DNA from: Thermofilum sp.
GTDB taxonomy: Archaea > Thermoproteota > Thermoprotei > Thermofilales > Thermofilaceae
Reading direction: 5' to 3'
Assembly (NCBI GenBank): GCA_038741495.1
Contig: JAVYKX010000002.1
Span: 198,541 to 262,540, forward strand
Length of the DNA: 64,000 nt
Made by a program: the position numbers and the translations under genes. The notes beneath the pieces are model-generated. The model made no database searches and was not told the origin of the DNA. It saw only the letters and a list, made by a program, of their open reading frames with translations. Positions 25 through 52,700 of this stretch are shown piece after piece; position 1 is the stretch's first letter; every line of letters begins with the position of its first letter.

Positions 25-38
25 CCGAGCTCGTGCAA

Positions 39-43
<5 letters not shown>
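25..43 (+). other. 23S precursor processing stem, 5' arm
   Basis: Bases 25-36 pair perfectly with 3127-3138 (12 bp). After a 2x2 internal loop (37-38 against 3125-3126), bases 39-43 pair with 3120-3124. Archaeal pre-23S is excised from such bracketing stems, normally by the splicing endonuclease at a BHB motif. Here I see an internal loop rather than a clean BHB, so the exact cutting site is inferred only in outline. Confidence 0.7.
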
Positions 44-3124
<3,081 letters not shown>

Positions 3125-3274
3125 AGGCACGAGCTCGGGCATTAAGCACCCTGCGCGGCGCATCTATTCTTCAACCCTTTCGCTCCCGTGCGCGTTTATG
3201 CTTCAGAGGGTAAGTGCAGAGTCTAAGTGGGTGCTCGTTTTCGACGTTAGACGTGATCTTCTTCAACAGATAAC

Positions 3275-4261: not shown

Positions 4262-4367
4262 GCCGGGGTCGCCTAGCCTGGTCTAGGGCGCCGGACTCAT
4301 AATCCGGTTATCCCGGGTTCGAAGCCCGGTGCTCGGCACGCGGGCGAGAGTCCCGGCCCCGGCACCA
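4262..4367 (+). tRNA. Elongator tRNA-Met(CAU) with a T-loop intron
   Basis: The acceptor GCCGGGG pairs with CCCCGGC (4357-4363), followed by A and an encoded CCA. The anticodon stem CCGGA/TCCGG carries the loop CTCATAA, so the anticodon is CAU. The CCGGA stem and G1-C72 pair suit an elongator rather than an initiator tRNA; Ile2(CAU) is a less likely alternative. A 27-nt intron (4324-4350) splits the T loop between positions 59 and 60. Its BHB is clear: helix TTCG/CGAG, 3-nt bulges AAG and AGT, and an inner CCCG/CGGG hairpin. Splicing restores T loop TTCGAAT on stem CCGGG/CCCGG. Confidence 0.93.
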
Positions 4368-4426: not shown

Positions 4427-4564
4427 TGGTGGGGCCGCCGGGATTTGAACCCGGGATTCGGCGGGCGTGCAAGCACCACGCCCTCCACCTGGGCTCCCGT
4501 TAGGGATCCCGAGTCCTGCGCCTGCAGGCGTGCCAGGCATCCTACCAGGCTGGACGACGGCCCC
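4427..4564 (-). tRNA. tRNA-Pro(CGG) with three introns
   Basis: The acceptor GGGGCCG pairs with CGGCCCC, then A and an encoded CCA. The T arm is CCGGG-TTCAAAT-CCCGG. Removing three introns gives anticodon stem CCTGG/CCAGG with loop CTCGGGC (anticodon CGG) and variable loop TGGTC. Intron 1 (about 4513-4531, 19 nt) lies at 32/33, with helix CCTG/CAGG and hairpin CGCC/GGCG. Intron 2 (4494-4507, 14 nt) is the canonical 37/38 intron, with helix CTCG/CGGG. Intron 3 (4457-4484, 28 nt) lies in the variable loop near 46/47, with a 7-bp inner hairpin GGGCGTG/CACGCCC. The intron 3 boundaries are the least certain. Confidence 0.85.
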
Positions 4565-7840: not shown

Positions 7841-7949
7841 GGGCCGGTAGCTCAGCTAGGTAGAGCGGCGGTCGAGGCGGCCGAGGCTCTTAGGTCCAAG
7901 TGATGGGGAAACCCGTAGGTCCCGGGTTCGAATCCCGGCCGGCCCGCCA
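7841..7949 (+). tRNA. tRNA-Lys(CUU) with two introns
   Basis: The acceptor GGGCCGG pairs with CCGGCCC, discriminator G, encoded CCA. The T arm is CCGGG-TTCGAAT-CCCGG. Intron 1 (7872-7885, 14 nt) splits the anticodon stem between positions 30 and 31 and has a perfect BHB: helix CGGC/GCCG with bulges GGT and AGG. Intron 2 (7893-7910, 18 nt) is the canonical 37/38 intron with helix CTCT/GGGG and bulges TAG and AAA. Splicing gives stem GCGGG/CCCGT and loop CTCTTAA, anticodon CUU. Confidence 0.93.
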
Positions 7950-9165: not shown

Positions 9166-9265
9166 TGGCGCCGGGGCCGGGATTTGAACCCGGGCGCCCA
9201 GAGATGGGCAGTGGCTTTCAGTTCTCTCTCCAGGCCACCGCCTTGGTCCGCTCGGCCACCCCGGC
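9166..9265 (-). tRNA. tRNA-Ser, probably anticodon GGA, with one intron
   Basis: This is a type II tRNA with a long variable arm. The acceptor GCCGGGG pairs with CCCCGGC, discriminator G, encoded CCA. The anticodon stem GTGGC/GCCAC encloses 18 nt, 11 more than a normal loop. Removing 11 nt at 37/38 gives loop CTGGAGA (GGA). Removing a different 11 nt at 33/34 would give CTTGAAA (UGA). Neither position has a good BHB, so the anticodon is a best guess. The exons and 37 bp of upstream DNA are shared with the second tRNA-Ser at 12.2 kb. Confidence 0.85.
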
Positions 9266-11929: not shown

Positions 11930-12069
11930 TGGTGCCCCGGCCGGGATTTGAACCCGGGATGTCCGCGCCCCCTCCCGCAGGCTGGAGGCTCCTCGGCTCG
12001 AAAGGCCGATATCCTGACGGCCACCGCACGCCTACTTCGCGCAGGCTGACCGGGCTAGACGACCGGGGC
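11930..12069 (-). tRNA. tRNA-Glu(UUC) with D-loop and variable-loop introns
   Basis: The acceptor GCCCCGG pairs with CCGGGGC, then A and an encoded CCA. The anticodon stem TCGGC/GCCGA carries loop CTTTCGA, anticodon UUC. A 32-nt intron interrupts the D loop (about 12016-12047); its ends can slide because GTCAG is repeated at both junctions. A second intron of about 30 nt (11961-11990) interrupts the variable loop near 45/46, with an inner GCCTCC hairpin and a 3-bp central helix CCG/CGG. Splicing restores variable loop GGATC and T arm CCGGG-TTCAAAT-CCCGG. Both BHB motifs are relaxed rather than perfect. Confidence 0.88.
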
Positions 12070-12138: not shown

Positions 12139-12248
12139 TGGCGCCGGGGCCGGGATTTGAACCCGGGCGCCCAGAGATGGGCAGTGGATCTCGAGTGTGG
12201 CGCTTTCTCAGGCGGGTCCACCGCCTTGGTCCGCTCGGCCACCCCGGC
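12139..12248 (-). tRNA. tRNA-Ser(CGA) with one intron
   Basis: The mature type II tRNA matches the tRNA-Ser at 9.2 kb outside the anticodon arm. The anticodon stem is GTGGA/TCCAC and the spliced loop CTCGAGA gives CGA. The 21-nt intron (12195-12215) lies at 32/33. Its BHB is perfect: helix GTGG/CCAC, bulges ACC and ACT, inner stem CGC/GCG. Discriminator G and CCA are encoded. The 37-base promoter repeat lies directly upstream. Confidence 0.93.
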
Positions 12249-52594: not shown

Positions 52595-52700
52595 TGGTGC
52601 CGGGGCCGGGATTTGAACCCGGGACCCTCCGGTCTCCACCTTTCTGGTGGCTTCAGCCGGATGCTCTCTAGCGCTTGCTCTCCCGCTGAGCTACCCCGGC
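52595..52700 (-). tRNA. tRNA-Phe(GAA) with D-loop and anticodon-loop introns
   Basis: The acceptor GCCGGGG pairs with CCCCGGC, A and an encoded CCA. Intron 1 (52668-52681, 14 nt) lies in the D loop near 20/21 with helix AGCG/CGCT and bulges GGA and AGA; the flanking repeat GAGAGCA hides the boundary on simple inspection. Intron 2 (about 52634-52650, 17 nt) interrupts the anticodon loop at or near 37/38 and is dominated by a CCACC/GGTGG hairpin. Splicing gives stem TCCGG/CCGGA and loop CTGAAGA, anticodon GAA. Confidence 0.92.

Follow-up and report, generated by a model that had tools for sequence, protein, structure and literature searches.

How is a tRNA assembled when its anticodon lies on an exon of five nucleotides between two introns, and a third intron interrupts the variable loop? 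This is the question raised by the minus strand of positions 4564..4427 of the window, as we call the whole 64,000-nucleotide stretch of DNA analysed here. The region is a tRNA-Pro(CGG) gene of 138 nt with an encoded CCA, and the first-pass annotation was correct both in its limits (4427-4564) and in describing it as a triple-intron tRNA-Pro(CGG); the strand is minus, also for all the parts that follow. Exon 1 (33 nt, 4532..4564), whose sequence is kept in orthologues, carries the 5' strand of the acceptor stem, the D arm and bases 27-32. Intron 1 (19 nt, 4513..4531, ACGCCTGCAGGCGCAGGAC) is inserted at 32/33, and it is followed by the mini-exon TCGGG (bases 33-37, 4508..4512), which bears the anticodon CGG. 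Intron 2 (14 nt, 4494..4507, ATCCCTAACGGGAG) lies at 37/38. As read from the sequence, exon 3 (CCCAGGTGG, 4485..4493) comprises base 38, the 3' strand of the anticodon stem and the start of the variable loop, and exon 4 (4427..4456) the end of the variable loop, the T arm, the 3' strand of the acceptor stem and the CCA. Between them, in the variable loop, is intron 3, of 28 nt (4457-4484) or 26 nt (4458-4483). The earlier description of an internal mini-exon TCGGG of about five bases agrees with the 5 nt measured (4512-4508), and the "six bases" of its title do not. We consider it quite probable that this is a functional tRNA-Pro(CGG) with three bulge-helix-bulge introns, and that introns 1 and 3 are removed before intron 2; its expression, its cleavage sites and this order are predictions from the sequence.

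The exons on their own make an ordinary tRNA. The sequence spliced in silico is called tRNA-Pro(cgg) by ARAGORN, with a normal cloverleaf formed from all the exon bases, while the unspliced gene and the form lacking intron 1 give no call, or are misread as tRNA-Ala when introns are allowed. In the window, neither ARAGORN nor Rfam at its gathering score detected the three-intron gene, and the tRNAs that they reported all lie elsewhere in it. Being overlooked by the standard finders is what could be expected of a decayed pseudogene with unspliced insertions. We regard that reading as very improbable, given that the exons yield a normal cloverleaf with an encoded CCA, that the intron positions are fixed and accompanied by compensatory changes, that the arrangement is found in two other genera too, and that no second CGG copy appears among the own-genome matches listed. 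Over the tRNA-Pro gene, Rfam also gave weak matches, below the gathering score, to mascRNA and tmRNA; these were rejected as a reflection of tRNA likeness, and a megablast search of the gene against plasmids gave no match.

The limits of the two introns of the anticodon loop can be read from genes that lack them. In G009, which belongs to another genus of the same family, the gene is uninterrupted (GGATGCGTGGCTCGGGCCCACGTGGTCCCGGG), and both its anticodon loop and its variable loop match the proposed spliced sequence; the anticodon loop, CGTGGCTCGGGCCCACG, contains exactly CTCGGGC. The anticodon arm of the own tRNA-Pro(UGG) of the window genome (L064) is likewise uninterrupted (CCTGGCTTGGGCCCAGG), and both genes support the mini-exon. 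One could suppose that introns 1 and 2 together with the mini-exon are a single intron of 38 nt and that the mature tRNA lacks TCGGG. The closeness of the two introns, and nothing further, speaks for this; the product would have no anticodon, and the loop of the uninterrupted relative carries the very bases that would be lost, so that we give this possibility practically no weight. Taken as separate introns, introns 1 and 2 have ends that agree with a strict bulge-helix-bulge motif.

Intron 3 is recognized by comparison with orthologues without it and by near-identical introns in other genes of the same genome, and the spliced product and the orthologues bear out the three intron positions originally claimed, 32/33, 37/38 and the variable loop. 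Its ends are uncertain by one nucleotide per side, as judged from the sequence. The strict motif (GGUG/CGCC, with bulges GA^G and GA^A) gives an intron of 26 nt and the variable loop UGGAAUC, of 7 nt. An intron of 28 nt leaves the mature loop UGGUC (5 nt) with a less regular, imperfect motif, and in the orthologues without intron 3, which come from several Thermofilum and include those of G004 and G005, the variable loop is mostly TGGTC. Both versions result in a tRNA-Pro call by ARAGORN.

In the motif of intron 1, bases 27-30 pair with the intron (CCUG/CAGG) and the inner hairpin is closed by CGCC/GGCG. In that of intron 2, the helix is formed by CUCG (bases 32-35) with CGGG, and the outer helix is the anticodon stem itself. 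The central helix between exon and intron has its 4 pairs in all 12 orthologues for intron 1, and in the window and 9 of the 12 orthologues for intron 2; that of intron 3 has 4 pairs, one of them G-U. Bulges of 3 nt whose cutting restores a standard tRNA are present for introns 1 and 2 and are less clear for intron 3. When the bases of introns 1 and 2 were shuffled 200,000 times, the intron-1 motif appeared with a frequency of 0.0003 and the intron-2 helix with 0.018, and both together never appeared; the double motif of the anticodon-loop introns therefore exceeds chance.

A search for the double-intron pattern of the anticodon arm found it in 9 of the 81 genomes of the class, that is, in all 7 of the genus of the window and in 2 of other genera of the same family. 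Among these 81 genomes there was no match outside the family, and a reversed control pattern gave none. The matches in the named collection are Thermofilum and Thermofilaceae records, and by its sequence the host type of this three-intron tRNA-Pro(CGG) is a Thermofilum-type archaeon. Twelve distinct orthologues, all of one family, retain both anticodon-loop introns, whose interiors diverge. In the helix columns of introns 1 and 2, 97% of the cells of these 12 sequences pair, and 3 pairs are changed on both sides, with 14 such cells, a number and a covariation score that 0 of 500 shuffles reached; the alignment was built from columns cut beforehand to the same length and is thus fitted to the structure that we propose, a dependence that the controls offset only partly. 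Sliding the helix partners abolished the covariation signal. The inner helix of intron 1 measures 3-6 bp in 12/12 and occurs as CGCC/GGCG, CGGC/GCCG, CGAG/CTCG or CGGT/ACCG, with two inner pairs showing compensatory types; that of intron 2 has 0-3 bp.

With respect to intron 2, base 34 of the anticodon covaries with its partner in the intron, the pair being C-G in 6 sequences and U-A in 3; the remaining 3 of the 12 orthologues have a mismatch in the helix. Two of the orthologues with anticodon CGG, L067 and L070, have an intron 2 in the form expected for UGG, which gives a C-A mismatch. In the CGG/UGG pairs of tRNA-Pro genes of T. pendens (L066 and L067) and of G005 (L070 and L071) the introns are nearly alike, and the intron 2 of the CGG copies is still the one that fits UGG. 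As far as the sequences indicate, the mismatch in these paired copies suggests that a duplication or conversion took place recently and that base 34 was changed.

The genome also encodes the enzymes that such introns would need. It has two proteins of the splicing-endonuclease family (PF01974), one being a catalytic-type alpha subunit (match to 3p1z chain B of the PDB, E 2.7e-47) and the other a divergent relative, and one gene for the ligase RtcB. The two PF01974 proteins would fit a heterotetrameric (alpha-beta)2 endonuclease, which we infer from their sequences. Thus the central helix, the bulges, the compensatory changes and the enzymes that characterize archaeal bulge-helix-bulge tRNA introns are all present, and excision is predicted.

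In what order would the introns leave? The original proposal was that the motif at 37/38 needs the stem CCTGG next to CTCGGG, an arrangement that exists only after intron 1 leaves, and that splicing is consequently ordered. The anatomy of the gene and the orthologues argue for the removal of intron 1 before intron 2; the proposal needs refinement, since intron 2 is able to form its 4-bp helix earlier. The last base of intron 1 in the window is C, like exon base 32, and for this reason the helix is possible with intron 1 still present, so that what is blocked is only the outer helix. That block is produced from both sides: on the 5' strand of the stem, bases 27-30 are occupied by intron 1, whereas on the 3' strand bases 42-43 are tied up by intron 3, which pairs with 42-45. 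Intron 2 needs 27-31/39-43, and this engagement of the same bases by introns 1 and 3 is the sharing that marks nested, ordered removal; the outer helix of intron 2 would therefore remain incomplete until both have been removed. Furthermore, since the inner helix of intron 1 is firm and that of intron 2 has so few pairs, intron 2 should be the most dependent on the exon stem. From the sequence, introns 1 and 3 are expected to leave first and intron 2 last.

A relaxed enzyme that accepts motifs without an outer helix might instead remove the three introns, real as they are, in no fixed order. (alpha-beta)2-type enzymes tolerate relaxed motifs according to the literature, and the terminal C of intron 1 in the window allows the 4-bp helix of intron 2 beforehand. 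However, exon base 32 is C in 12/12 orthologues, but intron 1 ends with U in 3 of them and with A in 1; and as long as intron 1 is present, its insertion of 19 nt interrupts the motif of intron 2 on the outer side. We consequently hold unordered removal to be unlikely, although it deserves more attention than the other alternatives mentioned. Folding energies, being model values, do not decide the matter, and neither prove nor refute an order. When the tRNA arms were enforced, the probabilities at 37 C were about 0.9 for the intron-1 helix and about 0.01 for the anticodon stem, and at 80 C each was near 0.1. Of the two competing states, that in which the motifs of introns 1 and 3 are formed scores -53.2 at 37 C and that with the anticodon stem and a makeshift intron-2 helix -53.4, and local energy favours the reverse order in 2 of the 12 orthologues. 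The bulge-helix-bulge motifs were absent from the unconstrained minimum-energy folds of the precursor, and the energies of the intron segments showed nothing unusual with respect to shuffles.

In the ordered pathway that we prefer, an (alpha-beta)2 endonuclease would excise every intron, and the exons would be ligated by RtcB. Cleavage of intron 1 would make use of its own inner hairpin and bases 27-30, and that of intron 3 of its own hairpin and bases 42-45; these two introns would be removed at the start, whichever comes first. With both gone, the anticodon stem 27-31/39-43 could close as the outer helix of intron 2, which would be cut last. During transcription, the intron-1 motif would presumably be complete ahead of the emergence of intron 2. 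It is tempting to go further and to see here a lock with two keys, in which the strands of the stem are held apart by intron 1 (27-30) and intron 3 (42-43) and intron 2 becomes cuttable only after both have gone, as a quality check on splicing; this extension is tentative, and we would sooner doubt it than rely on it. Since intron 3 is present in some and absent from others of about a dozen orthologues, the order of splicing is testable by comparison.

Neither the ordering principle for archaeal multi-intron pre-tRNAs nor the triple-intron tRNAs of this group are new, both being already published. According to reviews, tRNAs with several introns, as many as three, are a prominent feature of Thermoproteales, and one paper places most of them in Pyrobaculum and Thermofilum. 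For some archaeal pre-tRNAs, the passages of PMC3978253 that cite Sugahara 2007 and Tocchini-Valentini 2009 describe a last intron whose motif forms only once the others have been removed, and the iterative search of tRNAscan-SE 2.0 (PMC8450103) was built because later motifs form only after earlier removal. To the extent that these two sources describe such nested introns, the ordering principle is the same as that proposed here, a comparison made by principle and not tRNA by tRNA. The closest likeness is in T. pendens (G003, in which permuted tRNA-iMet and tRNA-Tyr lie at the coordinates published for that species), where L066 and L067 have the same three intron positions, a 5-nt mini-exon and similar intron ends. 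There, the architecture is present in both the CGG and the UGG genes, whereas in the window genome it is limited to CGG, the UGG gene being interrupted near 25/26 instead. Pre-tRNA-Pro(UGG) of P. islandicum (Pyrobaculum) and pre-tRNA-Glu(UUC) of P. calidifontis likewise combine canonical and noncanonical introns to a total of three; unlike the window gene, the former has them at 25/26, 56/57 and the canonical position, with no pair around a 5-nt anticodon exon. In Cyanidioschyzon merolae, whose tRNA-Ile(UAU) has three introns, that at 37/38 is the last to be removed, with RT-PCR support in the cited work, but the motifs of this tRNA fold independently and the order is not forced by shared strands, as it would be here. 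Neither an anticodon exon of 5 nt between 32/33 and 37/38 nor a role of intron 3 in keeping the stem open was met in the literature examined, outside which the primary catalogues lie, and we claim no priority for either. The gene is a clean example of tRNA introns sharing stem strands, and the known picture is unchanged.

Other tRNA genes of this genome are also interrupted. Outside the window, L063 Pro(GGG), L064 Pro(UGG) and L065 Val(GAC) carry a variable-loop intron nearly identical to intron 3 and an intron near 25/26; the common variable-loop intron of these Pro and Val genes is consistent with the intron transposition published for this order. In the window, an elongator tRNA-Met (4262-4367, plus strand) has a T-loop intron of 27 nt at 59/60 (GCCCGGTGCTCGGCACGCGGGCGAGAG), whose motif, TTCG/CGAG, is regular, and the ends given for this gene by ARAGORN and Rfam (4339 and 4338, respectively) are too early. 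In T. pendens, 59/60 is likewise where the permuted tRNAs are joined. Five further tRNA genes or candidates are over-long and probably bear introns, at 7841-7946 on the plus strand and at 9169-9265, 11933-12027, 12142-12248 and 52598-52700 on the minus strand, and ARAGORN called none of these five in the window. The three-intron gene illustrates how tRNA genes of this group escape the standard finders. The window also contains a full-length archaeal large-subunit rRNA gene (37-3126, plus strand).
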